A stretch of DNA of 64,000 nucleotides from Clavelina lepadiformis (lineage: Eukaryota; Chordata; Ascidiacea; Aplousobranchia; Clavelinidae), in the NCBI RefSeq assembly GCF_947623445.1, contig NC_135243.1, positions 23,630,479 to 23,694,478 of the forward strand. Direction: 5' to 3'. Below are positions 11 to 45,900 of this stretch, piece by piece. The position numbers and the translations under genes were made by a program. The first letter of the stretch is position 1, and every line of letters starts with the position of its first letter. The notes below the pieces were generated by a model, which was given only the letters and a program-made list of their open reading frames with translations, made no database searches and was not told the DNA's origin.

Positions 11-3000
11 GCGATATGTTGAAAGATTTTGATGTAATTCAGAGATTGAGCAGTGGTTGCCATGGTGATGTGATTTTATGTGTCTCCTATTCGCTCTGAT
101 GCGTCACTTAGTGGTCAGTATGTTTAATTCCTGCTCATCTCGTCACAATAGCTTACTTTGACGTCACATTGTCGTTTTATTTTTGATAAAATTGAAGCTG
201 TCAATTCAAAATTAACAATAAACGCTTCGACGAAACAAAGATGATCATAAAATACAAAAATAAAAGTTAAATAAATTTCTGTGATTGTTACGTCACAAAC
301 AACCTTCATGAGATATGCGTCAGATATACAAAATTCCTTGCTGACGTTACGCATAATAAGGGGGTGGGGGCCTCCGGGACTGGTAAGGGCTTGCACCTGG
401 AATTCCCCTTTCTTGAAACTGGTATCTTGGCATCATTCCTGGTCGTGGCAACGTCATAGAACGATTCGGAGTGTCGTTGCCTACGTCATAATTAAGAATT
501 GATTAAAGAAATGATGTTCGAAAATAATGTAGTTGCTTCTGCATTAAATATCTTCGTCATCTCACCTCTGTTCATAGGTTCCCAGTCAGGGGAATTATCG
601 TACCCCCCGTCCCAGTAGCCTCCGCGACGTGGCTGATTCGGCTGAAAGGGGAGGGATCCTGTAAAAGCATTTAAACAACATTTTTAATAGACATCTTATA
701 GAGCGGAGATATCATGAACGTACCACGGGTCCGCGGTCCCATGTAGGGCAGCCTCATAGGTGCTGGCTGGTACATTCTTGGACCCATAGGTCCTCTAGGA
801 CCCATAGGTGGCCTCATCCGGAGAGGGTAAGCCCCGTATATGGGAACACCTGGACGAGGAGTTGCAGTGACGTAGTTATGTGGCATATGGACCCCGGGCG
901 GGGGCATTCGAACTATCTGGGGAGGGGAGGGGCCAAGAGGTCGATTGAAGCGAGCTGGGTACATTCTTTGGGGGTTAGGTCGGGAATTGCCCCTGTCAAA
1001 GCTCATCGATCGCTGCATTCCATTTGGTTGTGCTTAAAAAAATTTTTAGAGTAATAAATTATTTGGTGAAAGAATAGGTAATTAAAATGCTGTCTGTGAG
1101 GTCACAAAGCACCTTTGCGTGAAGCAAACGAATTTCTTAATTTCGTCGGAGAAACACTGGGCGCTCTCATGCTGGATGACCTGGTAGTTGACCTTCCTCG
1201 TCTTACGTCATCATCTAATGACGTTGACCGCTTCTTTATCTAGCAGAAGGAAAAGAAACTTCGTTTACAACCAAGGAATACTTTAGAGCTCATCATTGTG
1301 ACGTAACTAACGTCAACTCTCTTGAGTTGTGCGGAGGTGATGGTGGATGCGGATATCACAGTAGATGTGTCGTCATCGAACACGCTATCCGTAGGTGGAG
1401 GATTCCTTCGTTTCTTTAACGCGCTCTTCAACGGAGGTTCACTGGACACGACACTCGCTGTATCGCTTGTGACGTCGGTGAAGATCGCGCTCTCGGGCCC
1501 GGTCGACTCCCCCAGAGATTTCACGGACCTTGTTCCCTGGATGCTTGATGGCGCTGCAGAAGAACCACTCCGAGCATCGTCTTTAGGAGGAGGTGTCACG
1601 GTCACTACCGGAGTTACAGAACGAGTCGAAGGAATGCTCGATGGGGTGTCTACAAGAGATAACGTCACAAAGATGATCAATCAGAAAATTATGTCGCAAA
1701 AGAAGTAATATTTATCACCTTTGCTTCGGTTTCTTTCTTCCTGGCTCTTGCTTTCTGCGCTGTCACGTGACGTTGTCTTCCCTTTGTTTTTTTCTCTTTC
1801 GCTTCTCCCTCCTTGTCGCGCTCGTTTCCTTTGGTCGTGACGTCTGCGTCTTGCCTGTTACGTCACAAATCTTGCATTATTTTCAAAGCAGTTGCAAACA
1901 AAGGCGTCATAAATAAGATCAATTTACTTCTTGTTCTCTCCTCTTTCTCTCTTGCTCTTTCTTGTAGCGGTTGTTCCTCTTTCGCTTCCTGATGAAGACA
2001 ACAATGATGACAACAGCTACCAGCACCAGCAATCCTCCAACCACTCCGACCGCTATTAAGATGACCCCCGATGACCCCGACGACATGTCTTTCGTCACTT
2101 TACCTATATTATTACGTCATTGGTAAGCGATGATTTAGCGCGTCCTCACACAGGAAGAAAATGTATAACTCACAATAACTTTTATCGGATGCTCCTGGGA
2201 TGTGGGTGCCGAGACTTCCCGGACATCTCTGGCAGAACTGCTGACCTGTGGTGTTCTGGTAGGTGTCCATCGGACAAAAGTCGCATTTCTCCCCAACCAG
2301 GTATGTGCCCTTCGGGCACGGAACTGTGTAAACAAAGAACAAACGCGTTTGTGAGGTTTAATAAAGAAGAATAAATAAGCAGCGAAAATAAAATGGCAGC
2401 GACTCTTCTTAATAATAAGAAAAATGTAAAGTAAAGTGCTGTATTTTGATCAATTGAAGATTAAGAGCCTACCGCATCCTTCCTCGGTGGCTATGAATCC
2501 TCTTTTTCCATCCGACCTCTCGCTGCAGACCACCTGAGCCTCTGACACCGAGTTTGTCGTATAGTTTGACTTCACCTTTCTGTTATCTAAACCATACGTC
2601 ACAATATCACCAAAGTTGGCGCTGTCCAGCAGCTTGGTTGCTGATCGCGTCACAATCTGTCGGACGTCTTTGGTTGACGTCAAACCGCGAAGAGAGTAAA
2701 GATCGACCTGAAATCGGGATTTCGATTAATAATCGATTCTTCTTACGAAACAATCACGATTCACGTGACGTCTCACCGTGACCGTGAACTTGAGAATCTT
2801 TTCGTCGATGCAATCGGCGATGACCTTGCCCTTGTCTCGACACAGCCCGAGTTGATGAGGCCTGGTAGGGCAATCGGCTTGGGTCTTGAGTGACGATTCT
2901 AAATCGATTAATCGCGCCTCGTAGAAAGTGGGGGAAGGACGACAGGGGCAGATGTAATGGAGGACGATGTCTTGCTTCACGTGACTCACTGAAGGTTCTG

Positions 3001-3694
3001 GAGCAACAAACTCTAATTTGATGGCTGGTTTGGACGTTTTGTTACGTCAAAACACTACATTATTGCACATTATCTAATAAATATCTTTAACTTGATTACG
3101 GGCTTGTGCTTTAGATGTTAAAAGATTATTATTAATGTGATTAAAACGAAGATCAGCTATCTCGATTCTCTTTTACAAATTCCTTGATTCAACAACGGAA
3201 TCCACTTCTTCCCGTCTTCGCCGTCGTCTACACACTTGATGTAGGGATCGGCCAATGAAAGGTGATGTTCAGGGTCACATGATATCCTGCACTTCTGCAA
3301 TTTGTCGATCGGATCCGTCGTGCAGGTCACGTGGCCGTTGGTAGGTGAGGCCGGAGCCAGGCATGGGGAATCTTTAAGAAAAGTTCCAAGTTTGCTAAAG
3401 TTTCAAACTTTACCCGCAAATGTCAATATAAGTTTGAAACACCCACCGTAAGTGATAACACCGAGTTGGAAGATACAGGTCCCCACGTTACCGGATCGGT
3501 CCCTTGCCTGATAACTGACGTTGTAAAACCCCACCGAAAAGGACCCAGGGTCGTAATTGTTGACGACAACAGGGGAAACACCCGAGTTATCAGCAAAGTT
3601 TGGAGATTCCCAGATGACGTACGCCTCCTCGTTGTCCGAGTAAGTTTCTACCTTCATGTCGGAGGGGCAAGGACTTACTAGGAGGGGCGGAGTG
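11..3694. repeat. Segmental duplication, copy 1 (partial)
   Basis: This block matches 15,872-19,553 in the same orientation, exons and introns alike, with only scattered substitutions and small indels. The match runs off toward the left edge of the window. On the right it stops sharply at about 3,694, where copy 2 continues into more receptor gene but copy 1 enters a TATG microsatellite and unrelated sequence. The near identity of the introns suggests a fairly recent event. The breakpoint falls inside a coding exon. Confidence 0.93.
347..3694 (-). pseudogene. 5'-truncated duplicate of the LRP-like/HYR/Sushi receptor gene
   Basis: This is the 3' third of the receptor gene described at 16,208-25,934. 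Read on the minus strand it holds the second HYR module (3,446-3,690), a Sushi module (about 3,170-3,372), two Cys-containing exons of unknown family (2,726-2,990 and 2,470-2,707), a GCC2/GCC3 Cys module (2,165-2,330), a membrane span (about 1,990-2,075), a basic stop-transfer stretch, a Ser/Thr-rich exon (1,300-1,650), a Pro/Arg/Met-rich exon (707-1,012) and a last exon ending in PPPPYYA with TAA at 347-349. All these exons are open and keep their splice phases. The signal peptide, propellers, EGFs, linker and first HYR are missing, because the homology ends three or four codons into the HYR exon and takes the acceptor with it. No replacement start or signal peptide is visible. I call it a truncated copy; it could still be transcribed from a new promoter, and the intact tail frames leave that open. 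Confidence 0.7.
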
Positions 3695-8092: not shown

Positions 8093-8112
8093 CGATGCTT
8101 AATTAACCGGTC

Positions 8113-10740: not shown

Positions 10741-11137
10741 CGCAACTGGAATTAATTTGAGATTTAATTTGTTCTGGAACGTAAAATTATCCACGCAACT
10801 TGTTTAAACGTATTGGTTTGATTAGAAATTAAGTCCCGTATTTTATGTATCTGAGGACGTCGTTTCGTCGAGATCATCAAAACGTGGTCATCAAATTGCG
10901 GAGGTTGTATTCACCAAAATGTAGAAGCATTCGACGTCGATGTCATGAAAATGTAGACGTTATTACAGCAGGTTCAGAGATTATCTGTCTTAACCTATGC
11001 TATATTAACTTATTGTACTTGTTGAATCAATTATCTGACTCTATCGTTGCGTGCGGTTAGAAACCTCTAACCTCTTGTCAGCCGTAAGCTTTTACTTTTC
11101 CAACAAACGCGAGTTAACCAAAAAGGTATTTTATTAA

Positions 11138-11691
11138 CCCTATCCTAACCAGGCTCGCGAGTTTACTAAAAAACTAGATATGGCCGACCCCGCACACACA
11201 TTTTCAATCGTTAATTACTAGAAAACTATACGTCGTAAACTGATCGGATTTTTACAGGTTAGTAGAAAAATCATCTGGCTTCCTGTATACATCATAAATG
11301 TAAAACTAACGAAAGTGAATTTAGTGTAAATTAAGTATTTCTAAAAGTGACACATTTCTAGAAATTCTTCTTGTTACGCCGCGCCCCCGCTGTGCGGAAA
11401 ACCAGCTGACCGCGAGAAGAGAACGACAGAGAATAGTTAGTCGAGCTATTGGTGCGTAAATGAGTAATACGCTTCAATGCGGAGAGCAGAGCAAAGCAGA
11501 GGAAAATTATGAAAATATCGCCATATCTTAAAAATTACAAAATCCAACTTTATCAAAAAAACATGGACAGATAGCTGAACATTTTTCAGGAAAAGTCACG
11601 AAATTTCAAGTTTCTACAGCAAACAATGCAACTGTACGCCACGTTTTGCTATGACAGTGTGCGGGAGAAGCCAAGCCTAGTTAGAATAGGG
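11138..11691. mobile_element. TTAA-flanked MITE (piggyBac-like), 554 bases
   Basis: Terminal inverted repeats begin CCCTATCCTAACCAGGCT on the left and end AGCCTAGTTAGAATAGGG on the right (16 of 18 positions match as inverted repeats). Both ends are flanked by TTAA (11,134-11,137 and 11,692-11,695), the target preference of piggyBac-type transposases. No transposase frame is present, so it is non-autonomous. It lies in a large intron of the IAP gene. Confidence 0.85.
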
Positions 11692-12752
11692 TTAAATGTG
11701 CTGTACACTCTACAAATATTACACATAATCACAAAAGCGTAGCAAACATTATAACTAGCGTAATATGCTCGTGCGACTCTGTATTTCTCCGTCTGGCGTG
11801 CAGTGCATGTCTCGAGCAGTGCAAGTCTGGCGGTCTCGCGTAGGAGTTCGAGCTTATAAAACGTGACGTTGTGAATGGAAATATACGACAAAAAACCGCA
11901 CAAAGTGGAAACTAGAAAACAATGTGTTGGAAATAAGGAGTTTTCACTCGATGTTATTCAGAGCTTGTTTCCAAGTATCAAACGACAATGTAAATGTTAT
12001 CAAAAAACAACTTCAATTAGTAACTGGAAAACACTTTTCCCAGAATGATGTAATGATATTAAAAATGTCACCCAGGTCGCTACATATCCAAGTCTCTAGT
12101 TTAAATAATTTTTTACAGGATTATTTTAAAAGAATAAGAAGTTACCTGAAGCACTTGGTCCTATGGCGAAGGCTAAGGCTGTTACGTTGTTAGGTTAATC
12201 CGTTGCTGACTCCTGACTCAGAAGGCTGCTGTTTCAGTTGTAAGCTAGCTTCGCTCATATATTAAAGGTTAAAACACGACCATCTTAGTTCAAGCCTTTT
12301 TTCGAAAACTGTCCTGTGCGCGCAAGCATTGGAAAAACGGAACTGAAATGGTGAAACGAACGTTCAGTGCAGAAATCAACACATGCTGGGAACGTCCCGA
12401 GGGCGCCAACCAGCGACAAACAAAACAAACACCCAACGGCCGCTACAGTCCTGTCTTTGAAACCGGTGAAATAAAAACCAGCAGAAGCCAACTTACGAAC
12501 ATCGACCTGAACTTTTCTGGGAAATAGTTTGAAAGTTGAAAGGCGGTAGGTCTTGCGTGCTGGGTCACCTGCAGTAACAGAAATAGGATTATGAAGTTTC
12601 TCTGGAACTTGGTTCTCAAACATGATTTTCCAACCTACCGGGTGGTAGCCTATGTAATGACTTCGTTGTCCTGGTGGGTCTCTAACTTGTCTCAACAACC
12701 TCCCGTCACTTTCTACATCTGGAAAATCCGCGGTAAGGTGATCCGTTAGCAT

Positions 12753-13405
12753 TTAATAAAGAGATAACTTAAGTTACTATCTCGATAAACAATGAAACTT
12801 AATCGCAATGGAATAGAAATAGTTCGTTGCTTCTTGTTTATTCGCACTACCCTTTCTCCACATATAATATACAAACAAATCAATGCATATAAATGGATAC
12901 AGGTTCTTTTGGAATTTCAAACAGCAGGGATTATACTGTACATTTACTTTGTGGGAGTAAGTAAGATGAAAAAGTTTAAGAACCCCTGCTTTATGTGTAA
13001 AAAATATTTGCATATGAAAAAAATGACCAGGTTAATTAAGCCATACATTGTTTACATACTGTTTCGTCATGCTTTCACCAACTTAAGTATCTGCCAATTT
13101 TACCAAACTAAAGTGTACCTAAGACAACAGGATTATGGTTATTAATCTATAATTAACATCTGTTACCACTATCTCATAGTCAATTCTTAATTGCATTTGT
13201 TCAAACTGCATTGACACAAATACAACAGATACTATTCGCTTATGCTTTTATTATATTCCTATGAGTTTACTGATACGATGGTTTCTTGACGATAAGTGTT
13301 TAGTGTTTCTGTTATCAGGGGTGACTTTCATCGGTGGAGACTTGGTTTTAGTTCTTTTCTGTTTTTCAGCAGTAGACATATTCACGCTTACACAATGGTT
13401 CTTAA
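12753..13405. other. AT-rich 5' flank of the IAP gene
   Basis: No supported gene. A plus-strand open frame at 12,792-13,145 has biased, AT-driven composition and no motif. Confidence 0.5.
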
Positions 13406-13854
13406 GGGCCTGTAGGCCTATCCGAAGCCCTATCTAAAACAATGCAAAGTACCATATTTTAATTTGAATTTGCTTCTAAACAAGCCCGGTCACCTGGCTG
13501 AGTTTTTGTATCCGCCGAGATGTAGGACAAAAGGTCTTAACGCAGTATTTTGAGCAAATTCTCGTATCTGGAATTCTCACACCAAATGCTTCAACTTTTT
13601 AACAACTTTTTTCCTTGTATTTTTCCAAAAAATCCGCCAAAAAGCCTTAACTTTGAACCAACACAAAACGTCAACTTAAGCCTGAATCTACACTCCGTAC
13701 CCGCCATGACAACAGCAAACATTCACAATTTGAGGTCGCGTGCGCACTGGACCGGAACCATTGATACTTTTTCTATAGTGACGTCTTGCATGCGACCTTC
13801 GTCACAATCGCCGGGTTGCCGTTTTAAAACTACTGAAAATCGTACTACAGGCCC
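13406..13854. mobile_element. TTAA-flanked MITE (piggyBac-like), 449 bases
   Basis: The ends are GGGCCTGTAG on the left and CTACAGGCCC on the right, a perfect 10-base inverted repeat. TTAA flanks both sides (13,402-13,405 and 13,855-13,858). It has no transposase. The right half shares about 150 bases with the fragment at 14,191-14,335 in inverted orientation. Confidence 0.88.
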
Positions 13855-14190
13855 TTAACAACAATTTCGTCTATACAATTAGACTAGCCTTTGTGAAGGG
13901 AAAGGAGCAATAGCTATTGCCAAAACGCTTTGAAAGGATTATTGCGGTTCAAGTCAGTGCTGAAACACAGCATGAAAAAAGAAATTGTTTGCTAATGCCA
14001 AACCAGTGCAAAAAGAATAATATACAAGGGATTCCTTTCCATAGCGAAGTGTGTCGATCGCAAAAAATTCAAATATTAGGAAGTTATAGTGAAGTTAGAT
14101 GACTCTTGTGGTACTTTACCTTAGTTAGAATCGTGATAAGATGAATGCTTAGACGATTCTTGTTTTAAACATTAATAGGTCTTCTGTTAA

Positions 14191-14335
14191 GGGCCTGTAG
14201 TACGATTTTCAGTAGTTTTAAAACGGCAACCCGGCGATTGTGACGAAGGTCGCATGCAAGACGTCACTATAGAAAAAGTATCAATGGTTCCGGTCCAGTG
14301 CGCACGCGCCCTTAAATTGTGAATGTTTGCTGTTG
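14191..14335. mobile_element. Partial copy of the same TTAA MITE, inverted
   Basis: It begins directly after a TTAA (14,187-14,190) with GGGCCTGTAG and matches the reverse complement of 13,706-13,854 closely, then diverges. The other terminus is not found. Together the two copies form an inverted pair that could fold into a hairpin with a loop of about 330 bases. Confidence 0.8.
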
Positions 14336-14460
14336 GAATTTCAATATCGTAAACAATCACTCGAACTGTTTTGGAAAATCCAAAATTTCCACATTGGTAA
14401 TTTCTAGCACAACCTCTAATTTTCTCCACATACGAGTTTAAACTTGCCATGAAATTTGTC

Positions 14461-14906
14461 TTAATAACACGCTTTGGCAATGCCATCGAATTTGTTGTAA
14501 TGGCCTGAGGCTACTCGTCATGTACTATTTCGTCACTACAAATTCAAAGCTTTTGAGAAGACGTCATTTCTTTCAAGGCAATGCTTAATTTGCTGTAATA
14601 GTCATACCAAAATCTCCTGTATTGACCTGTTCAAAACACGTGCTTTTATGACGTAGCACCACCTATTCTCTGACAGGTTTAGACTTGCTTTGGATTCGCG
14701 TGTGTGAAGTAATTGGAATTATCGCACACAAATACCTGTAAAGAAATTCGCTATATTTGGTAGTAGCAGTTGGCTTTCTTGTCAAAAGCAACAGCACTAT
14801 ATTTGGTTTTTTACAATATTTGGTATTTCTTGCTGGCTACTAAAACTGTGACATCACGCGGTACCTTACAGGAGCCTTAAGTCGATGGCAGCTCTATACT
14901 ACTAGC
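14461..14906. repeat. Outer inverted-repeat arm, right
   Basis: Partner of 7,628-8,092. It lies about 1.7 kb upstream of the putative IAP start, so the left arm is an inverted copy of the IAP 5' flank. Confidence 0.88.
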
Positions 14907-15456
14907 GATTTATAGCATTATACGGCGGGATTTTCTCTGCCCTTACTTTTAACCAGTGTGGCTCTACGTTGAATTCTCAAAACAAGCAGTGTAATAGCGG
15001 GACCCCGGATGATACCAGGCTTTAAGGGATGAACGCGCGTGTTGAATTAGATGTTTTCGTTTGGTTTAAAGTGGTCAGGTCTAAGCCTATTCATTGCGCT
15101 TTACTAAACAGATATGTGAGCTGTTGTCTATTATGCCATTTTCATAAACTTGTATAATATCTTTTCCTGATGGGTAATGTCGTCATTTGATAGCCCATTG
15201 TTGTTGCATTGTTATCTCATAAATTAACAATTAAGAACATATCGGGTTTCATCTTTAGCAAATTTGTTATAACAAAAGTTTAAATATTGAGTTTTCCCCC
15301 ACAATAAAAGGAAATGACGTCAAAACCAGCCTAAACTTCCGCTGTGCCGCGCCCATTAACGTCAAGGCGATTTACACACTTCACTGCACATTCAAAGTGA
15401 AGTACACTGACGTCATCGCAGAAAAGAACACTTGAACACGACATTAATATGTGGTA
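14907..15456. other. Spacer without a supported gene
   Basis: AT-rich sequence with a few TGACGTCA palindromes (near 15,313 and 15,410). I see no coding block or repeat of note. Confidence 0.5.
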
Positions 15457-15813
15457 ATGGAGCGGTCAAATGTCGAAGTACTTCCGCTTTCTTGCGTCGA
15501 TAAATTAAAACATTTCTATGTTTTTGAAACAGAATGGCTGATGGCGTGGAAGTACAGAGATTTCAATTACAGAGTTACAGCTGCTATGATGGATGAAAAG
15601 CTTTTTTTATCTGGTTATTTACTTCTAGGTCAGGCACATGCAACTCCTTCAGAGATACAGTACAGAGATTTCAATTACAGAGTTACAGCTGCTATGACGG
15701 GTGAAGGAAGAGCTTTTTTATCCGGTTGTTTACTTCTGGATCAGGTATGTGCAACTCCTTCAGTACCCTTCGGCCCAAAACTAAAGCGGCCACGAACATC
15801 ATCTACGAGCTAA
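15457..15813 (+). CDS. Hypothetical small ORF with a 36-codon tandem repeat
   Basis: An ATG at 15,457 opens 118 codons to TAA at 15,811-15,813. The middle holds two in-frame copies of a 36-codon unit (YRDFNYRVTAAM near the start and FLSG near the middle of each). I recognise no family. It ends about 60 bases before the start of the duplicated block and converges on the 3' end of the receptor gene. Frame is preserved because the repeat period (108) is divisible by three, so it may be a chance frame over a tandem duplication. The repeat also contains TTTCAATTACAG, which resembles a splice acceptor, so an exon duplication is another reading. Confidence 0.25.
   Translation: MERSNVEVLPLSCVDKLKHFYVFETEWLMAWKYRDFNYRVTAAMMDEKLFLSGYLLLGQAHATPSEIQYRDFNYRVTAAMTGEGRAFLSGCLLLDQVCATPSVPFGPKLKRPRTSSTS
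15553..15770. repeat. Two-copy 108-base tandem repeat
   Basis: TACAGAGATTTCAATTACAG recurs at 15,553 and 15,661, and the following bases match with scattered changes, a small indel and decreasing similarity to about 15,770. Confidence 0.88.
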
Positions 15814-15871: not shown

Positions 15872-18800
15872 GCGATAAGTTGAAAGGTTTTGATGTAATT
15901 CAGAGATTGAGCAGTGGTTGCCATGGTGATGCGATTTTATGTGTCTCCTATTCGCTCTGATGCGTCATTTTGTGGTCAGTATGCTTAACTCCTGCTCACG
16001 TCGTCACAATAGCTTACTTTGACGTCACATTGTCGTTATATTTTTGATAAAATTGAAGCTGTCAATTCAAAATTAACAATAAACGCTTCGACGAAACAAA
16101 GATGACCATAAAATACAAAAATAAAAGTTAAATAAATTTCTGTGATTGTTACGTCACAAACAACCTTCATGAGATATGCGTCAGATATACAAAATTTATT
16201 GCTGATGTCACGCATAATAAGGGGGTGGGGGCCTCCGGGACTGGTAAGGGCTTGCACCTGGAATTCCCCTTTCTTGAAACTGGTATCTTGGCATCATTCC
16301 TGGTCGTGGCAACGTCATAGAACGATTCGGAGTGTCGTTGCCTACGTCATAATTAGGAATTGATTAAAGAAATGATGTTCGAAAATAATGTATAGTTGTT
16401 TCTGCATTAAATATCTTCGTCATCTCACCTCTGTTCATAGATTCCCAGTCAGGGATATTATCGTACCCCCCGTTCCAGTTGCCTCCGCGATGTGGCTGAT
16501 TCGGCTGAAAAGGGAGGGATCCTGTAAAAGCATTTAAACAACATTTTTAATAGACATCTTATAAAGCGGGGATATCATGAACGTACCACGGGTCCGCGGT
16601 CCCATGTAGGGCAGCCTCATCGGTGCTGGTTGGTACATTCTTGGACCCATAGGTCCTCTAGGACCCATAGGGGGTCTCATCCGGAAAGGGTAAGCCCCGT
16701 ATATGGGAACACCTGGACGAGGAGTTGCAGTGACATAGTTATGTGGCATATGGACCCCGGGTGGAGGCATTCGAACCATCTGGGGAGGGGAAGGGCCAAG
16801 AGGTCGATTGAAGCGAGGTGGGAACATTCTTTGGGGGTTAGGTCGGGAATTGCCCCTGTCAAAGCTCATCGATCGCTGCATTCCATTTGGTTGTGCTTAA
16901 AAAAAAGTTTAGAGTAATAAATTATTTGGTGAAAGAATAGGTAATTAAAATGCTGTCTGTGAGGTCACAAAGCACCTTTGCATGAAGCAAACGAATTTCT
17001 TAATTTCGTCGGAGAAACACTGGGCGCTCTCATGCTGGATGACCTGGTAGTTGACCTTCCTCGTCTTACGTCATCATCTAATGACGTTGACCGCTTCTTT
17101 ATCTAGCAGAAGGAAAAGAAACTTTGTTTACAACCAAGAAATACTTTAGAGCTCATCATTGTGACGTAACTAACGTCAACTCTCTTGAGTTGTGCGGAGG
17201 TGATGGTGGATGCGGATATCACAGTAGATGTGTCGTCATCGAACACGCTTTCCGGAGGTGGAGGATTCCTTCGCTTCTTTAGCGCGCTCTTCAGCGGAGG
17301 TTCACTGGACACGACACTCACTGTATCGCTCGCCCCGTCGGTAAAGATCGCGCTCTCGGGCCCGGTCGACTCCCCCAGAGATTTCACGGACCTTGTTCCC
17401 TGGGAGCTTGATGGCGCTACAGAAGAACCACTCCGAGCATCGTCTTCAGGAGGAGGTGTCACCGTCACTACCGGAGTTACAGAACGAGTCGAAGGAATGC
17501 TCGATGGGGTGTCTAGAAAAGATGACGTCACAAAGATGATAAATCAGCAAATGACGTCACAAAAGAAGTAATATTTATCACCTTTGCTTCGGTTTCCTTG
17601 TTGGCTCTTGCTTTCTGCGCTGTCACGTGACGTTGTCCTCCCTTTATTTTTTTCTCTTTCGCTTCTCCCTCCTTGTCGCGCTCGTTTCCTTTGGTTGTGA
17701 CGTCTGCGTCTTGCCTGTTACGTCAAAATATCTTGCATTATTTTCAAAGCAGTTGCAAACAAAGGCGTCATAAATAAGATCAATTTACTTCTTGTTCTCT
17801 CCTCTTTCTCTCTTGCTCTTTCTTGTAGCGATTGTTCCTCTTTCGCTTCCTGATGAAGACAACAACGATGACAACAGCTACCAGCACCAGCACTCCTCCA
17901 ACCACTCCGACCGCTATTAAGATGACCCCCGATGACCCCGACGACATATCTTTCGTCACTTTACCTACATTATTACGTCATTGGTAAGCGATGATTTAGC
18001 GCGTTGTCATAGAGGAAGAAAATGTATAACTCACAATAACTTTTATCAGATGCTCCTGGGATGTGGGTGCCGAGACTTCCCGGACATCTCTGGCAGAACT
18101 GCTGACCTGTGGTATTCTGGTAGGTGTCCATCGGGCAAAAGTCGCATTTCTCCCCAACCAGGTATGTGCCCTTCGGGCACGGAACTATAGAAACAAAGAA
18201 CAAACGCGTTTGTGAGGTTTAACAAAGAAGAATAAATAAGCAACGATAAGAAAATGGCAGCACCTCTTCTTCATAATAAGAAAAATGGAAAGTAAAATGC
18301 TGTATTTTGATCAATTGAAGCTTAAGAGCCTACCGCATCCTTCCTTGGTGGCTATGAATCCTCTTTTTCCATCGGACCTCTCGCTACAGACCACCTGAGC
18401 CTCTGACACCGAGTTTGTCGTATAGTTTGACTTCACCTTTCTGTTATCTAAACCATACGTCACAATATCACCAAAGTTGGCGCTGTCCAGCAGCTTGGTT
18501 GCGGATCGCGTCACAATCTGTCGGACGTCTTTGGTTGACGTCAAACCGCGAAGAGAGTAAAGATCGACCTGAAATCGGGATTTCGATTAATAATCGATTC
18601 TTCTTACGAAACAATCACGGTTCACGTGACGTCTCACCGTGACCGTGAACTTGAGAATCTTTTCGTCGATGCAATCGGCGATGACCTTGCCCTTGTCTCG
18701 ACACAGCCCGAGTTGATGAGGCCTGGTGGGGCAATCGGCTTGGGTCTTGAGCGACGATTCTAAATCGATTAATCGCGCCTCGTAGAAAGCGGGGGAAGGA

Positions 18801-19553
18801 CGACAGGGGCAGATGTATTGGAGGACGATGTCTTGCTTCACGTGACTCACTGAAGGTTCTGGAGCAACAAACTCTAATTTGTTGGCTGGTTTAGACGTTT
18901 TGTTACGTCAAAACACTACATTATTGCACATTATCTAATAAATATCTTTAACTTGATTACGGACTGGTGCTTTAGATGTTAAAAGATCATTATTAATGAT
19001 TAAAACGAAGATCAGCTATCTCGACTCACTTTTGCAAATTCCTCGATTCAACAAAGGAATCCACTTCTTCCCGTCTTCGCCGTCGTCTACACACTTGATG
19101 TAGGGATCAGCCAATGAGAGGTGATGTTCAGGGTCACATGATATCCTGCACTTCTGCAATTTGTCGATCGGATCTGTCGTGCAGGTCACGTGGCCGTTGG
19201 TAGGTGAGGCTGGAGCCAGGCATGGGGAATCTGTAAGAAAAGTTCCAAGTTTGCTAAAGTTTCAGAGTTTACCCGAAAATGTCAATATAAGTTTGAAACA
19301 CCCACCGTAAGTGATAACACCGAGTTGGAAGATACAGGTCCCCACGTTACCGGATCGGTCCCTTGCCTGATAACTGACGTTGTAAAACCCCACCGAAAAG
19401 GACCCAGGGTCGTAATTGTTGACGACAACAGGGGAAACACCCGAGTTATCAGCAAAGTTTGGAGATTCCCAGATGACGTACGCCTCCTCGTTGTCCGAGT
19501 AAGTTTCTACCTTCATGTCGGAGGGGCAAGGACTTACAAGGAAGGGCGGAGTG
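15872..19553. repeat. Segmental duplication, copy 2
   Basis: Direct-orientation partner of 11-3,694. It covers the stop codon, cytoplasmic tail, membrane span, GCC2/GCC3, Sushi and most of the second HYR exon of the complete receptor gene, plus about 330 bases of 3' flank. The block starts about 60 bases after the hypothetical ORF ends. Confidence 0.93.
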
Positions 19554-22500
19554 GCGTCTAAAAACAAAATATAACATGAATTGACTGCAAACTGAAATTA
19601 ACTTAAAAAATCGAGTCACAGTGTGAGATCACCCTCATGAACTTGCCTATTACGTCAAATATGATAGAACACGTGACTCTCCGACCATAGTCGTCATCGG
19701 CGTAGAAGGTTACGATGTGAAGGTCAGGGTCAAGTTCAAGTTCACTGACAGTGAGGTTATGCGAGTTCATCATCTTCATTTCAATCTTCTCTTTTCTTCC
19801 GTCGAAAACAGTCAGCGAGGGGAATGACTCAACAAAAGATACGTTCATCGTCAGATATGCTGAGTCATCCGGTATCTTCACCTCATATTGAGACTTTTCA
19901 TTGCACCCCACAAAATAGGGAGCTTTGGGCATGGCTACGAAAAACAATAAGTAATTTTGTGACGTATCAATTGTTAACGTAGACATAACTATAAATTGAT
20001 GACGTAACAATACATCAAAAGACCGCAATACTACACTCACAGGTGGTCGTCGGTTGGGTGCTGATTGTGGTTGATGGCGGTTCGCTTGCGATTGTTTGTG
20101 GCTCTTCACCAGGTTCTGTGACGTTAAAATCGAGAACAAGAAGACTGTCCGTAGTTACAGTCATCGTGGTCGTGTCGATTGTCGTCTGTAAAATATTGTG
20201 AAGTAATTAATATACTTCTGATGGTGTCATATATTTAAAATCCAATTAGGGTCTCACAGTATTTGTCGCTTGTGTCGTCACAATTAAATCTGCCCACTTC
20301 GCGGTGCTGGTGGTCGAATATGGGGGCGTGCTCGTGATAGGAGTTGCAATTGTTGACGTCAGCAGCTTTGCTTGTTCCTCTGTTGACGTCATAATAACAT
20401 TTATTGGAATAATTCAGGTTATTAAGTTTTAACAGATTTAATATAATATTTAATCGATTTAATTTAATATCAAACAACAAACAGGAAGCTTAAAAGTCGT
20501 TGACGCTTATAATTATGGCACCAACCGACCTGTGACGCAACTTCTTTTATCCGGTGCGAGGGTGAGGTCATCGGGGCAAAGGCATACGTAGGTTCCGGTT
20601 CCGGGGAGGCAGATATGAGAGCAACGGTGGATCTCCTGGTAGCATTGGTCTTTAAAATCTGAAAGAAGGAGCCATATTTTAAGCTTAAACAATATGAGCA
20701 TTTCCTACTAAAAGTCTCGATCTAAAACCGAACCGCTGGAAAAATCTTGTATTCACACCAAATAAGCGTTTGTTAATCTGACAACCCGCCTGGAGGTGAG
20801 TTTACTATGTTTAACGAAGTTCCGAGTGGGGAAATCCCAATAGCAAAACCATGGAGGGTGTAAGCAAGAAAGCGTCGTACCTCTCGCTTGATATTCCTCC
20901 TGGACGTAGATCTGCGAAGGTCGAATGAGGTCACTCATTATGACGTCAGATCTCGAATATCCGGTCTTGACAACATCTCTGTTGACCCAGTCACTATAGA
21001 TGAGCGATGATTGGTACTTCCAGACCCCGTACATGTGCCCAGCTGTGCCGTTCCTATCGAAGCTGTCCAGCACTATGCCACCTGTTGCGAACATAAAAGT
21101 TCGATTTTCACGTCATAAAACATTTATTTTTCGTCTCAAGTAACTATTTTTCTGTGACTGATAACAAAGCTCCTTACTTGACAAAGTGACAGATCTTATG
21201 TTGAGTTGTCCTCCGTCGGAAATGAATAATTTTTTCGAGTTTTCATCAAAGAATAAACCGTTTGGCCATTTGAAGTCGCTGTTGCCCACCATGCGCGGAT
21301 CCTGTCCGTTCATCTTCGCCAGGTTTAGCATGGGGTAATCCCCCCATTCAGTCCAGTACATTAACCTGGGTGAAATAGCTTGCATAACTTCCCGTCCAAT
21401 CGACTCTCACAATAGGGACATACCCGAGCTGTGGATAGAGTACAATGGCACGAGGGTTGGTAAGCTGCTTGAGAACTGTGGCATGTTCCATTCGATTCAA
21501 ATCTAGAAGTTCGATTGTTCCCTTCTCGCGGTCGGTCCAGTACAGCAATCTATGGTCCGAGTCCAGCGTCATGCCGTCTACAGTCCCTATGACGAAATTT
21601 TTACGTCATAATGACTTGACCTCGCAAACCTATTAGACTACTTTAGCAACCAGTTTACCTATGTTACTGTAAATGATTTCTATGTTTCTTGCGCGGGAGT
21701 TCCCCGATGCAAGACTTTGGCGAGAAATTCTCTGACGTCCATTGTCAGCCCAATACACGTATCTGGTCACCGGGTCAAAGGTCAGGGCGACGATATTGCT
21801 GAGAGTGTCGTAGGTGTTGACCACAACGTACTGCTGGGGGTCGCTAGGTACAAAGCTTTTCATAACGATTCGGTTGACGTCGGCGACAAGAATGAATTCA
21901 TCTGGTTCTGTCCAAGTGAAACAATCACCATTTATTAGATCACAATCGCCATTGTCAGCATAGAATGTAGACGATTGTCAAAATTTTATGAATGTTATAG
22001 ATTTTTAGTTATTCTTTGGTCTATTTCGCAATTTTCGTGGTCACCTCACCGACACAATTCTTGTCCGCTGACAAGACGCTAGTCGAACTATCCGGGCACA
22101 CACAGGAGAAAGCGATGTCACTAATTGGTACGCATACGTCGCTACAGTGACGTATGTTCTTGCAGATGTTCTCTGTAAAGTAAACTTTGTTAAATTCGAC
22201 CAGAACGACGTCATAATGAGGTGAATGATCACATACTTGGCATCGGTGGTTTAGTGGTCGCGTGAATTATCCCTGTGGGTTTAGAGATGCCAATGAGAAA
22301 TTCCCTTCCCACCCACCGGGTGTTCTGGGTCCCTCCAACCCCATCTGGGTCAACTTCGTAAATTCCCCCAAAGCCCCAGTCTGTGAAGTAGAGTCGGTTC
22401 TTTTTCAAGTCAAACGTCAACCCAAATGGAACCTGCAACGTCATAATAGAGTATTTCATGACGATGACAACGAAGGTAAAAAGCTTGCAAGAATTTTAAT

Positions 22501-25500
22501 GGTTTAATTTCAATATAAGCTCATTGCAGAAACGCTGCTTCTACTTAAAGGCAAACCTCCATAGATATCCCAGTCATTTCGAAATCTTTATATCTCGACG
22601 TAAAATACTGTATCATTTTAGGGGGTTCCCCGTATATGACGGTCCCATTCTCGCCGATGATTGCGCTCTTGGCGTGGGAATCGGTGACGTAGAGTATGTT
22701 GCCGTCCAATGCGAGACCGTTCGGATTTTCGACGTCGATGTCAAGCACTTGGGGGTGCTTGCCGTCCAGGTCGTAGCGCACTATCTTTGGGTGATTCCCC
22801 CAATCCGACACGTACAAGAACCTGGACCAAACAAGAGAGTCAGATTTGAGTTGGGAGGACTCCTAGAAGTCTACTGAGTTCGTTTCGAGCTCACGTGACG
22901 TGTCGTGGCGCTTTTAAATCATTTTACTTCTTGTTGACCAGCATCGAACTGTACCAAGCTTGTTGTACAATCTTAACATATGACCTACACAAAGTCATAT
23001 TTAAGGAAAGGAAACTTACCTCTCTTCAAAGTCGATCACCAGGTCGCGCGGTTTCTCCAAGAGGTCAGAGGTCAGAATTTTTCTATTCCCGCCACTTTTC
23101 AAATTGACCATCTCAATCTGGTGAAATGGCGCCCCCAAGTCGCCCATGTTGGTGAAGTAAAGATACCCATTCACGTAATCGACGCACAGGCCTGGGTTTG
23201 ATGAAGGAAAGTTAATTAAGTGTATAGAGAAGGCTTCCTTGGATGTATTCGACCTCTGGTGCAATAATTATTGCAAAAGAAATAAGTTGTTTGATTGTAA
23301 TTTACCGTCCACCGTTCCTATGCCATCCTGAAGAAAAATAGCGGTAGGAGAGTCGTTCAAAGGTTTCCGGTAGATGGCGTTCATTGCAACATCGCTCCAG
23401 TAAACAACCTGCAAGCACAACAGCCAACTCGTTATCATTCTGCTCAGTGACGACATTATTTGCTTTTGTCAACGTAACAATCTTGACCTTCTCCGCTGGG
23501 TCAAAGGCGACTGCAGAGGGCTGGTGAGATTGGGCGAGCATCGACGGACTTTTGGACGCGCCAAGGTCGGTTGAAAGAATCATAACTGTCCCTTCGTCTA
23601 TTGACGTGTAGGCCAGAAAATTTTCGGGAACTGAAAATTGTTGCACATTAGGTCATATTTTATCGATGACTACATCAAGAAATAATCAATAAGTCATTTC
23701 TTTACGCGGTGAACATGACTCACCAACGCAGTTACGTCGATCCGAGGATAGTACCAGACCGGTGTTTGAGGGACAAGCACACCTATGGTCGTTGTAGGAC
23801 TTGGGCAAGCAAATGTGGGAACACGGAGCAGATCCTGGATCTTCTTGGTACCAGCATGGGTTGGTTTCTACAAACACAACCTTTTAAACAATCATCCACA
23901 TTATGACGTCATAACAACATACAAGAATGACGTACTTCTTTGATGTTGTTGCTGTCTTTCGTTGACAGTGGTTATCCCCATCGGTCTAGATCCCAGATTA
24001 CCAACGACACGTTTAAAATGCTGACCAATCTTAGTGATAGAATAAAGCGAGCTATCATTCCATACTCTGCCAACAAAATAGATTATGATGTCATATTTTA
24101 ATAAACGATAATTGAAGCATAATAGTCGGCAAATATTCAGGCAAATTCAAAACTAAAAATTCTGCAATTCACGAACCCAAAGTAGAGATGGTTGGCAAAG
24201 AGCGATAGACCAAAGGCTGGATTTTTAAAAGTGTAGGAGAAGTCGTAGATGAGTTTGTAGTTTTGACCATCAAAATCACAACTTTCGATCCGCCTCGTGC
24301 TGCCATCAACCCAAAACACAGTCCTGAAAATGCATTGTGAGGTCATGTCGATGTCACTAAGGATCAGGAGTGTTTTCCCCTTGAAATTAAGAACCAAAGA
24401 AGAAGTTTCAAACTCCTAACGGTTTATGTTCCCCAAGTCACCTTTCCAGGTAGTTAATGGCTATTTCGTTGGGCCAGACCAGACCAGTTATAACCACCCG
24501 CCGACCAGATCCATCCATTTTGGCCATTTCAATGGTTCCTGTGCTCTGGTCGCTCCAGAACATGAGTCTTTGAAGAAATGACGATTAATTATCAAAACAC
24601 TCGTAAAGTTGACTGTGCTGAGCCACCACAGTAGCATAAAGATTATGACAATGTTAATTTGAGGAGAGGATGATTTATTAGTTACGAACCCTTCTCTTGG
24701 AAGGAGGGCCAGGCTCCTAGGTTCCGATAATCCACCAATCAGGCGCACGCGTTTGCTCCCATCATGCCTTGCGACAAAAATGGCGCCGAGTTGGGCATCC
24801 GTCCAGTAGATGTTGCGCGAGAGCCAATCAACGGCCAATCCGTTCGGTTCAAACACATCTGTAGCGCATGTGCATGTTTTAGTTATATTTTACATTGGCA
24901 ACAAACTGCTATTGTTAGTTCACAAACGTCACCTTCTGATACAATCCTCGTCGCGACCCTGCCATCTGAGTATCGAGCTCGGTAAATTCCCCTTTGCTTC
25001 CTGCTTACGTCACTCCAATAAATATAATCGTTGGCAACGTCGACATCCACCGCGACCGGGGTTCCCCTTAATTCCTGCATAATGGCATCATTAAAAATAA
25101 GTGTATTGAGCAGAAATATCAGGAGGGGCTAAATGACGTCGGCGTACCCGGATATAGTCGGTTTTGAACCCAAACCCGCCTCCCAGTAGAACCTTCGATA
25201 TCCTGTTAACGTCGGCGATTATCACGTGACCATCTTCACCTTAAAAACATTTGTCTGTTAAGTTGTCTGTAACGTCACAAAGCCTTTTATTATCGCACAA
25301 CTTACTGGAGTGACTGCAGTTCCTCTGCGCTCTGCCCTCGAAGGATAACCGGCAGGTGCATCTGTAGAAGATGTTGCCATCCAGGAGCTCCACCGTGGTC
25401 TCCCCAATCCTGTATGACCTCTGGTTGACGTAACAGAACCCTGTAATAATGGTGGTCTGTGACATCATTTTTGTAGCTTGATTGTTTTCGAAATTTGCAT

Positions 25501-25934
25501 GCAATGAAGAATAACCAAGAAAAAAGACATTTTTGAAGTGAAAAAAACAATTATAAGGTCAAAAACTTTCAAGGTCAATTTGTCAAGGTCAAACGGTTAA
25601 AGAAACTTTCTTTCTTGATTAGTGTAATAGGAAGGCGAGATTCAAAAATGTGTGACGTCATAATCGTTTAAAACCGCCCAACGTACAAGAATCTAACCAT
25701 GACTGACTGGCCATCTGTGCCTGCTGAAGTGTTCAAGACCAGCTGTATAGGTCTAAGTGTTAATTAAATCTGCCCAACTCATTGACTCGAGTAGGCTACT
25801 TTTGCATTAGATGGCTGAGTGGGATTTAAAATTGAAAGCTCTGAGTTTGATTAAATGTACTTACTTGAAAATGAATGCCCTTCGCCAATAAATAAACTTG
25901 ATATGACTAAAATCCACAAAACGCTTTTCTTCAT
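16208..25934 (-). CDS. Mosaic membrane receptor: FN1-like, three YWTD propeller-EGF units, HYR x2, Sushi, GCC2/GCC3, TM, PY tail
   Basis: About 2,000 residues by rough addition. The start is the ATG at 25,934: its exon (25,865-25,934) encodes a signal peptide (MKKSVLWILVISSLF) and splices in phase to a fibronectin-type-I-like exon (25,306-25,440, CTC motif). LDLR class B repeats follow in three groups: 23,930-25,240 (YWSD, YWTD, FWSD), 22,228-23,632 (YWSD, YFTN, YFTD) and 20,880-21,915 (YWAD, YWTD, YWTE). Each is closed by an EGF-like module: 23,728-23,868, 22,052-22,172 and 20,530-20,660. A Thr/Ser/Pro-rich linker covers 20,050-20,390. Two HYR modules (19,650-19,935 and 19,305-19,560), a Sushi (19,030-19,232), two exons of unknown family, a GCC2/GCC3 module (18,030-18,190) and a membrane span (about 17,850-17,935) come next. 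The tail is basic, then Ser/Thr-rich, then Pro/Arg/Met-rich, ending PPPPYYA with TGA at 16,208-16,210. PPPY would bind WW domains. LDLR-A repeats, typical of LRP5/6, were not seen. Ligand and partners are unknown. Exon edges are approximate. Confidence 0.85.
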
Positions 25935-27139
25935 GACGCCGATCTTGAGGCCAGGACCTCTGATTCGACACAATTTTAAAATAAAACAAATCTAAAACAA
26001 GATGAAAGTTATTTGATCACATAAACTTTTCCTTAACAGTCGTCTCAACTGTTTACAAAAACATAATTACAAAATAAAACTTGATATCCAGACTTAACAA
26101 CATCTTCGTTGGACTCAGATACACCGAGAAACTCTAGTCACAAATTTTCCGTTTTTAGCACATTGCATTAACCTGCAGCAAACACATTTGCGGCTGACAT
26201 CATTGTTTGTGCTGAAAAAACTAATGAGATAACAAACGAACGGAAAAAATCAGGTAACGGCTAAGGAATATGACCAGTTTAACGATACACCTGCTATCAT
26301 GTGTTGTCTGCCTTCCGGCGGTTCTTCATAACACATTCTGTAATTTACCAACTAGTTTTACCAACTTACTTACACGTGACTTACGAATAATACTCATACT
26401 TGAGCAACAAATAAATAAACTAATTTCACTCATACTGACACCGTTCAACTAAATTTGCAAAGAATGGAAAAGTGTTACGTCACACACAAATAGCAAAAGG
26501 GTTTTATTAATTGAAGAAGATAATAGTTGAAGTATTACGTGTCTTCATCTCCTTTGTCATGTAATAAAGCCCGCAGGCTCTCAACTGGTCCAACCACTTT
26601 TTGTGATGAAATTTAGCCGAGGTTTTGATTTTTGTGGCGCAGCTATTTTCTGGCGACTGGAACTCTAAACCAATTACACGTTTGCTTTTCAAATAAACGT
26701 TTGAATGATTTGGTAAAACAAAATTTTTGGGATATTTTTAATTTGTAAGAAATAGTCGAGTGCATCATTACTTGGTCTAATTTAATAATGCAACGTTGGG
26801 CAAACAGCAGCTCGTCGACATTTTATTTGTGGCTCCTCAATATTTCAATAGTGAACAATAGTTAATAACAATAGCTAGTAATAGTTAATAGTGTTCAATA
26901 GTGAACAGTTGAAATTTGAACATCGTATTATTTTATAACATTTTTAAAACTACAGTATATTATATTAACGTAGTATACTTAACTACAGTACGAAACGAAC
27001 AAGATATCATCAACAAATAACAGAACATGAAAACCTGAAGGTGAAAACCGAGGTTTTAATCACCAGCACAAAAACATACAATAAGCAGGTATAAGGCGTT
27101 ACAAAATTGTTTTAGCGACCTTTTCAAATGGTTCATCAT
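25935..27139. other. 5' flank and spacer upstream of the receptor gene
   Basis: No gene recognised. The stretch is AT-rich, with an AATAGT-rich low-complexity patch near 26,840-26,910. The receptor promoter should lie at its left end, but no convincing core element stands out. Confidence 0.5.
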
Positions 27140-28885: not shown

Positions 28886-31800
28886 ATGGCGGAAAACCCA
28901 AGGTGTGTTTGGGTCTGTTGCAGAAGTGCACAATCACAGGATACATTTGTATACCAGCTAGCTAGACCTCAGCTACTCAAATTCTGAAGTCATCTGATTG
29001 TGGGCTTCTGCACTAGGCTGGTGTGTTTTATGTTATACCAAAAACAAAACTCTTATATAAGACACAAAACAGACAGTTTTTAATGAGAAATCGTCCGTGC
29101 AAAGACGCAAATTTTGGCGTAATGGAGCGCAATAAAGCTTCAATTCTATTTATATTTGTTGTAATTTATCATTCAAACAACCAGTTTTAATTTTTTTATT
29201 TTTTATAAATCTGCGTGAAGATAAAAAAGTTCTGCATGCATGTTCATGAATGTCGTGATTGGCATAAACGTGGCCACATAACTTACTCAAAAAAAATTAA
29301 CTTAAACAAAATTTCAAATAATAGCAAGTTTTACACAAGACTGTGTTCAGGCCCTTACTCATATTCATGCTAATGAATATAATTTTTGTTAAGTGGCAAC
29401 TTATAACAACTAAACAAAACATTGATACTTTAGTATACGTCAACACCTCTGAAATTGTGTTTATGCACGCACATATGTTTTGGCAAATCAACTGGAAAGT
29501 ATTGCAGTTTTCGACAAGAAACTTTGACTCATACCCGATGTCTTATTTACTATGAATAGCCGTAAATGTTTGAAAGTGTGACATGCACAATGATGAGTTT
29601 TGTGAGATGCACTTTCCATTATAGCTCGTAAAATATTTTCAAACTGGCTCGATACATTTTATTTGTTTAGTTTTCTTTAATTAGGAAATCAAAGTGGGTT
29701 ACAAAGTTACACTAGAGACCATTTACATCATTAGCCATTACAGTAGAACCTGCCTAATAGGAGCACCAAGTTTATATGATCATTTTGGTATGATCCCAAT
29801 TTTTCCATATAAAGTTATTACTAGGACCAGTCTTCAGATATAATGACACTTTTGTCAACGATCTTGGTGTGGTTATATGGTATATAACACAGCAGCTTCG
29901 GTTCTTGTGACAATTCGAATATTATGACCAAAATGATCTGGTCCCAAGGTGGTCATAATAAGCTGAGTTTACTTTCTCAATCTCCAAGGCAAAGACTAAA
30001 ATAAGACATTTTGTAATTTTGTGTAAGACAACCAGGTAGACACAGGTTGAAACAGATCTATCATGGCATCTGGCATCGTTTTATATATTTGTCCGTCTTG
30101 AACAAAATTTCCTGTCGGAATAAGCTAAACGTGCATATTCAATCAGATCTTTCGTTCTAATCAACATTCAAGTTAGACACAATAAAGTCAAACAAAGAAG
30201 CCTCCTTAAACACAACGATACAACAACCACCAAACATTCTTGTTAAATTAAACATCATTTCAAGTATTTGCCTAAGCAATGCTTTCTATCTGAGAAAGTT
30301 CAACATATCGGTCCTATTCAACTTTCGACAAACTTTTTTGAAGATGGCTTTGTGTTTGAACAAGGGCTACCTCTGGTATTGCCCCAGCCTTTATAAGCAG
30401 GTGGAACCAAACAGTCTCGTTAAAGTTTATATTTTACAGGGATGACGACCAACCTAGTCTGGCAAAAGCTGTTTCCAAAGTGACTGTAAAAGCCCTTCAA
30501 GAGGTGAGCTTGAATTTAACTTGCATTTAAACGTTTGCAGCCCATTGGTTGAACTTGTTCTTGTTGCAATAAATCAACATCGAATCATGTTAACATGAAG
30601 CAAGACAGGAAAATATATTTAATGAAATGCACGAGGCAGAAAAAATTGTGCTAATGTCCTAATAACTAGTACCAATCACTTACCTACTTTCCACTGTGCA
30701 TAAACACAACTGGTTCCAATATTGCCTACATCTCAGTGACCTCACAAGTTGAGTTATTTGATTGACAGCTTAGCTTGGAAGACATGGCGTCAGAGGAAGG
30801 GGCAATGAACATGGCTCTTGCCACAGAAAGTGACGATGACTTCCGAAGAAGCCGGCCGAGTAGTGCCACGCAAGGTTTGTGTCACACTTCACAAGTCTCT
30901 GAGATTTAGATTGAAAAGAGATATTTATAGTTTGTTGTGGCAGGTGACACGAGTACGTTGTTGCGCAATCTTGGACAAGGTGTCGGGATGCTTGACACTG
31001 ATTCGGATGACGGAGAAGAAATGGATGATTTTGAGAGGGTTCGTTCTCGTCAGTCGTAAATACTCCATAATAAATTATACTTAAATCAAATCTCAATCTA
31101 GCTTCTACAAATTATAACATCACCATTACATCATACACTGCAGGCTGGCGAATCAGACGAGGAGGAAGAGGTTCAGTCGGATCTGGTAGTGCTCGATCCA
31201 GATCATCCCTTGATGAAGAGATTCCAGAATCGACTCAAACAACATCTTCTCAAGCAACTGGAGAAAGCGAGACTCGAGAGAAAAGAGCTGGTCAGTGGTG
31301 ATGATCAGAGATGATGTCATTGGTGATGACATCACTTAACCTGTGTTTGATCTCTAAGACGGATGATCTGAAGAGGAAGAAAACAAACCGAGAAGATCTC
31401 GGAGTGCGCTTGTACGGCTCGCAGCAGGAGTTGGCACGGCAACAAGCCAACCTGGAGCAACTCCGAGACAAGTTTGCCGTCTCCTCCGACAAGAGACGGA
31501 AAGAAGAGGAGGACTTGAACAAGCTGCGGGAGAAATATAAACAATTCCAATCTCAATCCAGCAAGGAGAGGAAGAAGAGTGAGTGATGAAGATTGTTGAA
31601 GTTTTACTTCGTTTGTTTCCAATATCTTGAGACATATATGAATAGCACAGTAGTGTCCATAAGAGGTTGTTGAAAACATCTTATTTATTCTTCGAAGATG
31701 CGGAGTTGCAGACAGAGGTGGAGAATCTGGCGACTCGGCTATTTTATATGCATAACGCAAAGGAGGACATCCGCTCGGACATTGCGGTGATGAAGCGGGC

Positions 31801-36202: not shown

Positions 36203-45900
<9,698 letters not shown>

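Follow-up and report, generated by a model that had tools for sequence, protein, structure and literature searches.

LRP5 and LRP6 are composed of four YWTD propeller-EGF units followed by three LDLR-A repeats, and carry PPPSPxS motifs in their tail. Nidogen is secreted and includes one propeller. In the part of PMC10281526 available, vertebrate Polydom is described as binding Tie1 and integrin alpha9beta1. Polydom-like short proteins of Nematostella associate a Sushi-HYR-TKE core with other domains (PMC12549020), named in the accessible text of that article as TSR or Ig-like and not YWTD; according to this source, reuse of the Polydom core is therefore already known. In the accessible portions of the literature searched, no description of YWTD and HYR/Sushi in one protein was found. 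The gene described here carries both module sets. It is located in a 64-kb window of the Clavelina lepadiformis genome (the whole stretch analysed, C4:23630479-23694478 of a 209.06-Mb assembly of 95 contigs). With some reserve, we favor the view that it is a single gene encoding a type I receptor, assembled by exon shuffling from an LRP-type head, a Polydom-type stalk and a tail with PPxY, and operating by the mechanism proposed below. If it encodes one protein, it joins two extracellular systems that are usually separate, the LRP-type propeller receptors and the Polydom core. Judging from its relatives in the same genome, it appears to be a member of a small unnamed receptor group rather than a one-off.

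The gene model was built by hand on the minus strand and each exon boundary was checked by script. It predicts 35 exons, from an ATG at 25934 to a TGA at 16208, and a protein of 2,010 amino acids (AA) with no internal stop and a single terminal stop. Of the 34 introns (median 83.5 bases), 33 are GT-AG and one, intron 23, is GC-AG. Several splice donors are weak; for exon 31, three in-frame ends are available, the first of which was used. Since exons were picked so as to keep frames open, frame consistency alone is no independent proof of the gene. EGF1, EGF2, EGF3, the HYR-like module, HYR, Sushi and GCC are each encoded by one symmetrical phase 1-1 exon, and such exons are a hallmark of shuffled modules. 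From the N- to the C-terminus, the order is signal peptide, fn1-like module, three YWTD propeller-EGF units, Thr-rich linker, HYR-like module, HYR, Sushi, a module termed X, GCC2/GCC3, transmembrane (TM) helix and tail. The features are as follows (positions in the window):

25865..25934, minus strand: exon 1, start codon and signal peptide MKKSVLWILVISSLFIGEGHS (Kyte-Doolittle hydrophobic core 2.63, 10 residues)
25306..25440, minus strand: exon 2, cysteine-bearing N-terminal module, fibronectin-I-like (fn1 E 0.01, 16.4 bits, below the cut-off of 27)
23936..25239, minus strand: exons 3-8, YWTD propeller 1 (Pfam and PDB chain matches)
23724..23867, minus strand: exon 9, EGF 1, phase 1-1 (cysteine pattern by eye)
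22237..23630, minus strand: exons 10-14, YWTD propeller 2 (Pfam)
22050..22172, minus strand: exon 15, EGF 2, phase 1-1 (cysteine pattern by eye)
20881..21907, minus strand: exons 16-19, YWTD propeller 3 (Pfam)
20530..20658, minus strand: exon 20, EGF 3, phase 1-1 (best FXa_inhibition stretch, residues 994-1027)
20041..20379, minus strand: exons 21-22, Thr-rich linker from EGF3 to the stalk (28 Thr in 89 residues)
19647..19934, minus strand: exon 23, HYR-like module 1, doubtful (marginal likeness to Polydom HYR2)
19306..19557, minus strand: exon 24, HYR module 2, phase 1-1 (Pfam HYR 53.9 bits, cut-off 21.7, 1 stretch)
19030..19230, minus strand: exon 25, Sushi module, phase 1-1 (23.0 bits scanned alone; 15.9 in the half-protein scan, cut-off 20.7)
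18334..18885, minus strand: exons 26-27, module X, 161 AA, without family assignment
18035..18184, minus strand: exon 28, GCC2/GCC3 (Ephrin_rec_like), phase 1-1 (41.5 bits, cut-off 23.1)
17789..17964, minus strand: exon 29, TM helix and basic juxtamembrane stretch (hydropathy windows)
16208..17714, minus strand: exons 30-35, Pro-rich (13.9%) rest of the cytoplasmic tail, ending RRPPPPYYA, then TGA; also open in the duplicate
16195..16200, minus strand: AATAAA polyadenylation signal, starting at 16200
11..3694, minus strand: direct duplicate covering exons 24-35 and 3' flank, truncated (copy of 15872-19553, 96.3% identical)

The translated model was scanned against Pfam in two parts, the first 1,118 residues and the other 892. 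The first part matches Ldl_recept_b (E 2.2e-49, 7 stretches) and the EGF profile FXa_inhibition (E 2.5e-13, 2 stretches); the propellers also pass the Pfam cut-offs for SGL (66.7), NHL (31.9) and DUF5050 (28.4). The three YWTD propeller-EGF units in one frame-consistent gene, put forward in the original prediction, are thus recovered in the splice-checked predicted model. GCC2/GCC3, also proposed there, is clearly above its cut-off. The Sushi assignment holds for exon 25 scanned alone and falls below the cut-off in the half-protein scan. Among the two HYR modules claimed, exon 24 is recognized by Pfam and exon 23 is not. Ldl_recept_a (PF00057) is absent among the families listed at E<=1 (6 of 6 in the first half, 25 of 26 in the second), consistent with the initial statement that no LDLR-A repeat was seen, and the genome search with the same profile gave no match in the window among the 150 of 915 candidates scored. 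vWFA and pentraxin are likewise absent among the families listed at E<=1, and a single Sushi stretch was found. Module X has no Pfam match at E<=0.1, and the GCC part weakly matches thyroglobulin chains in the PDB (best E 0.001). PDB matches of the head include LRP2, LRP4, LRP6, LRP8, VLDLR, LDLR and nidogen, with two matched stretches and E 7e-87 for an LRP6 chain. Propeller 1 scores 156.6 bits with LRP4 (3v64), 150.2 with LRP6 (3sob), 129.4 with LDLR (1ijq) and 94.6 with nidogen (1npe). The hydrophobic core of the signal peptide is attained by 19 of the 481 ATG windows of the 64-kb window.

Sixteen overlapping 21-residue windows exceed a hydropathy of 1.6, all within residues 1583-1618 and none elsewhere in the protein. 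The Protocadherin match on the TM and basic stretch (27.2 bits, cut-off 26.3) is taken as a composition effect. Eleven N-glycosylation sequons precede the helix. The segment C-terminal to it (about 396 residues) ends in PPPPYYA, so that the Pro-rich tail with PPxY expected from the original prediction is found, PPxY lying within residues 2005-2009 (PPPPYY at the C-terminus). Seven R[RS]x[ST] sites occur, one of which is RSMTLP. No NPxY was found in tail residues 1609-2010, nor any PPPSPxS in the tail, and the label of Wnt/lipoprotein-type receptor attached earlier to this gene is not supported for this part of the protein. We take R[RS]x[ST] to be basophilic-kinase sites and PPxY, NPxY and PPPSPxS to serve WW-domain binding, endocytosis and Wnt signalling, respectively. 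Because the tail lacks both NPxY and PPPSPxS, canonical LDLR endocytosis or LRP6 signalling by this receptor would be unlikely.

The same genome carries a Polydom/SVEP1-like locus (C5:7.790-7.814 Mb), treated here as one gene. It includes two HYR (90.6 bits, 2 stretches), three GCC, Sushi, and a pentraxin match (35.7 bits) at C5:7809622, after the GCC repeats; by eye, three Sushi-like stretches plus one further Sushi-like stretch (called Sushi4) can be distinguished. Modules were compared by local alignment (BLOSUM62, 1000 shuffles, z scores). The HYR of exon 24 is closest to Polydom HYR2 (z 15.1, against 8.2 for HYR1), the window Sushi to Sushi4 (z 6.0, against 0.6-4.1 for the other three), and the window GCC matches GCC1 (z 10.0). 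Since HYR2, Sushi and GCC each match the module at the equivalent position of the Polydom-like gene, the stalk corresponds to the HYR-Sushi-GCC2/GCC3 core of Polydom/SVEP1 in order, with one module unproven. This bears out the earlier proposal that an LRP-type array is joined to a HYR/Sushi/GCC stalk of the SVEP1 kind. Module X as a proven homologue of the Polydom region was rejected on the scores of its second half, given below. Between Sushi4 and the GCC repeats of the Polydom-like locus, an extended acidic region and a basic one rich in Arg are visible by eye.

The architecture does not stand alone. Four further genes with two YWTD-EGF units, HYR and Sushi are present in the same genome, one at C3:5.976-5.984 Mb and three at C5:3.260-3.306 Mb, and a single unique fusion was therefore rejected. 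The HYR family search of the genome scored 14 candidates, of which five reached E<=0.001. These are the window gene and its duplicate, C3, where the match adjoins YWTD repeats, and two on C5. The C3 gene model comprises 19 exons and 950 residues, with signal peptide, two YWTD-EGF units, HYR (41.6 bits), Sushi (24.5 bits alone, 18.3 in context), a Thr-rich stretch, a clear TM and a short tail. Searching with its end part led to the C5 cluster, which includes three genes (a-c), two on the plus and one on the minus strand, 78-95% alike in DNA blocks longer than 250 bases, and which may represent a recent expansion. They show a signal peptide, two YWTD-EGF units, HYR (28.0 bits), Sushi (20.6 bits, cut-off 20.7) and Thr-rich exons. 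Pfam was run on pieces of gene a only (1 of 3); b and c were delineated by matches to a, with splice sites unresolved. Signal peptides and TM (in a and b) were recognized by eye, the TM exon of a being matched in frame in b only. The order signal peptide, YWTD-EGF, HYR, Sushi, TM is seen in full models for the window and C3 genes and by exon matches for C5 a-c, the TM in a and b. The number of YWTD-HYR-Sushi genes is a lower bound, since the HYR family search listed none of the three C5 genes. GC-AG introns occur in the stalk region of both the window gene (19646) and the C3 gene model (C3:5976503).

The C3 and C5 genes resemble the window gene in having propeller-EGF units followed by HYR and Sushi, in their Thr-rich stretch and, for C3 and by eye for C5 a and b, in their TM. 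They differ in having two propellers, in the position of their HYR on the other side of the tree, and, for C3, in a tail of about 90 AA. The genome family search gave no GCC2/GCC3 match (PF07699) at the C3 and C5 loci. In the HYR tree (FastTree, 8 sequences), the window HYR2 and Polydom HYR2 form a pair (0.897), which HYR1 joins (0.934), apart from C3 and C5 a-c. The best pairwise score of Polydom HYR1 is with the C3 HYR (112), which conflicts in part with this tree. The window Sushi shows a z score of about 6 with Sushi4, 0.7 with the C3 Sushi and -0.5 with the C5a Sushi, while the C3 and C5a Sushi lean to SushiA of the Polydom-like gene (z about 5). A close relationship between the window and C3 Sushi was rejected (z 0.9). 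In an exon-wise search with the window head, the best non-self match lies on C2 (45.6 bits, against 33.2 for C3), indicating that this head is no closer to the C3 gene than to other LRP-type genes. The window gene groups with the four others by architecture, its stalk being apparently nearer Polydom than theirs. In the HYR tree and in the Sushi scores, the two stalk types incline to different Polydom modules, with pairwise HYR scores in partial conflict and short domains, and it is plausible, although unproven, that the two forms arose by separate joinings. A broader possibility, which we advance only tentatively, is that LRP-type heads were joined at least twice, among the ancestors of this tunicate, to Polydom-type modules, on the HYR2-Sushi4-GCC side in the window gene and on the HYR1/SushiA-like side in C3 and C5. 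These would form a hitherto undescribed class of chordate membrane receptors in which propeller head and Polydom stalk act together, for example in tethered adhesion or recognition, with a small expansion on C5.

The duplicate begins within exon 24 at a CATA repeat and has lost the exon 24 acceptor. Its donor after exon 25 is GA in place of GT, exons 24-35 being otherwise open with one 3-base insertion, and it is probably a gene fragment. Compared with the gene it shows 35 synonymous and 32 nonsynonymous differences (6.5% synonymous divergence), a ratio of nonsynonymous to synonymous rates (dN/dS) of 0.27 that indicates constraint on exons 24-35. The ratio is 0.11 in the ectodomain part (15 synonymous, 6 nonsynonymous) and 0.41 in the TM and tail (20 synonymous, 26 nonsynonymous). 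The overall value is below that of a long-dead copy, in keeping with either a haplotypic copy or a duplication that is recent and involved diverged alleles. In the left flank (piece 4782-9805), blocks of 90.4% and 92.6% identity match window positions 4041-7628 and 14904-15651, and nothing matches 7629-14903. As these blocks continue the repeat around a gap, we infer that about 15.5 kb was duplicated in tandem and that an insertion or loss followed.

Several observations speak against a single receptor with a Polydom-type stalk. The model, and with it the single transcript across 25934-16208, is predicted from genomic sequence. An AATAAA at 20405 lies inside intron 20, past the stop met on reading exon 20 onward, and an in-frame ATG with a modest hydrophobic stretch occurs at 19986, ahead of exon 23; together they leave a two-transcript reading possible. 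Sushi4 was named by position and cysteine pattern, Pfam listing no Sushi there at E<=0.01. Between the second half of module X and the Polydom region at the same place, similarity does not reach significance (z -0.5 with BLOSUM62, 0.5 with BLOSUM45). The window HYR2 scores 100 with the C5a HYR and 99 with Polydom HYR2. Finally, the identity of exon 23 as a HYR module is doubtful: its Pfam scan gave no HYR match, and its z score is 3.9 with Polydom-like HYR2 (2 of 1000 shuffles equally good) and 0.4-2.1 with two others (HYR1 2.1). A single-sequence structure model of exon 23 is a low-confidence beta-sandwich (predicted local distance difference test, pLDDT, 62.4; four other models 38-45). Its fold search in the PDB gave no match at E<=0.001 among 641, with bacterial NEAT domains and others in the top rows, which is uninformative at such confidence. 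In the HYR tree exon 23 groups with C5 on a very long branch that says nothing on kinship.

The intron 20 signal and the ATG at 19986 would be explained if two neighbouring genes shared this strand, the first coding for a secreted protein with three propellers and ending in intron 20, the second for a HYR-Sushi-GCC-TM receptor and starting shortly before exon 23; the duplicate at 11-3694 indeed holds the second half only. However, exons 21-22 span the interval in compatible phases, and the Thr content of exon 21 is equalled in only 2 of 1822, and that of exon 22 in none of 1348, stop-free samples of the same length (taken from the 64-kb window, those of the gene itself excluded). The hydrophobic core at ATG 19986 is equalled or exceeded in 108 of 481 ATG windows. 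AATAAA or ATTAAA is common, with 14 occurrences on the gene strand within 15900-26200, the signal of the gene itself at 16200 counted. HYR and Sushi also follow propeller-EGF units at four other ('unlinked') loci. Two genes are accordingly improbable. One gene with alternative ends, yielding the membrane receptor as well as a soluble ectodomain of three propellers polyadenylated in intron 20, or a form skipping exons 21-22, is unlikely, if somewhat less so. The intron 20 signal agrees with it, and skipping would preserve the frame since exons 21 and 22 together measure 267 bases and the junction of exon 20 with exon 23 would be phase 1 on both sides; the signal may nevertheless be a chance occurrence in an AT-rich intron.

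That the gene is an LRP5/6 or LRP4 orthologue, having lost LDLR-A and gained a stalk and still acting as a Wnt or agrin receptor, would agree with LRP4 and LRP6 giving the best scores for propeller 1 among single-propeller PDB chains. Nevertheless, YWTD followed by LDLR-A, the LRP5/6 order, is found at C6:17503957-17516586 on the plus strand, and LDLR-A followed by YWTD at C2:16.786-16.810 Mb on the minus strand, suggesting that both LRP kinds are present elsewhere in the genome. These two loci were read from domain matches without gene models, the LDLR-A list covering the 150 candidates scored out of 915. With LDLR-A not seen and the tail motifs absent, this origin was rejected and we regard it as very improbable. 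An assembly or haplotype artefact mimicking a fusion seems the least credible of these explanations. Ascidians are very heterozygous, and the nearby direct duplicate, at its low synonymous divergence, could be taken in its favor, but the 64-kb window and the 10-kb left flank are free of N, the duplicate lacks propellers and is broken inside exon 24, away from the junction between propellers and stalk, and the same kind of joining is observed at four other loci.

The single-gene receptor is therefore preferred, and the following mechanism can be proposed. Exon shuffling would have placed three YWTD propeller-EGF units, as a head devoid of LDLR-A, on a Polydom/SVEP1-type stalk. The three propellers may bind an extracellular or matrix ligand. 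The Thr-rich linker is probably O-glycosylated, and the stalk would keep the head off the membrane and may add matrix contacts. The tail could signal, or be turned over, via WW-domain proteins recognizing PPxY and via basophilic-kinase sites, rather than, presumably, by NPxY-type endocytosis or Wnt signalling from PPPSPxS. The protein is most likely a ligand-binding or adhesion receptor. This receptor group could reveal how the Polydom core acts once tethered to the cell, and its repeated joining to propellers, if true, would indicate a functional partnership. As a group of three similar genes in a colonial chordate, the C5 cluster is a candidate for a recognition function. The four relatives found in the same genome illustrate that claims of a unique fusion need a search for paralogues.

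Other features of the window include, on the minus strand, a RING finger exon (8603-8875, zf-C3HC4_3 43.7 bits, IAP-like by eye) with a nearby frame resembling an EF-hand by look (6912-7157), and a CRAL/TRIO (Sec14-type) exon (38184-38621, 60.2 bits). On the plus strand, coiled-coil-like frames (31074-33815) show a CCDC39-type axonemal likeness by eye, the one frame scanned having no Pfam match over cut-off. Also on the plus strand, a signal-peptide-like start, an EGF-like match (FXa_inhibition 30.8 bits, cut-off 33.4) and a hydrophobic helix between 56994 and 60329 perhaps form one small gene. Elsewhere, dense Sushi matches at C8:18.63-18.91 Mb include many equal-score pairs about 79.4 kb apart (150 of 1412 candidates scored), a possible segmental duplication of a Sushi-rich array.

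The window protein shares with the LRP family (LRP4, LRP5/6, LRP1/2, LDLR) the repeated succession of YWTD propeller and EGF and a type I membrane topology. It differs in its HYR/Sushi/GCC stalk, in the absence of detected LDLR-A and in a tail without NPxY and PPPSPxS. Compared with LRP5/6 in particular, it has three propeller-EGF units, no LDLR-A seen and no PPPSPxS. It resembles nidogen in its YWTD propeller and differs from it by the presence of three propellers and a TM helix. As in Polydom/SVEP1, HYR, Sushi and GCC2/GCC3 (Ephrin_rec_like, TKE) occur together, here without a vWFA or pentraxin match and without a long Sushi array. In contrast to that secreted matrix protein, it has a predicted TM helix and three YWTD propellers. 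As a gene model, this unusual architecture has good support; it recombines two known module sets.

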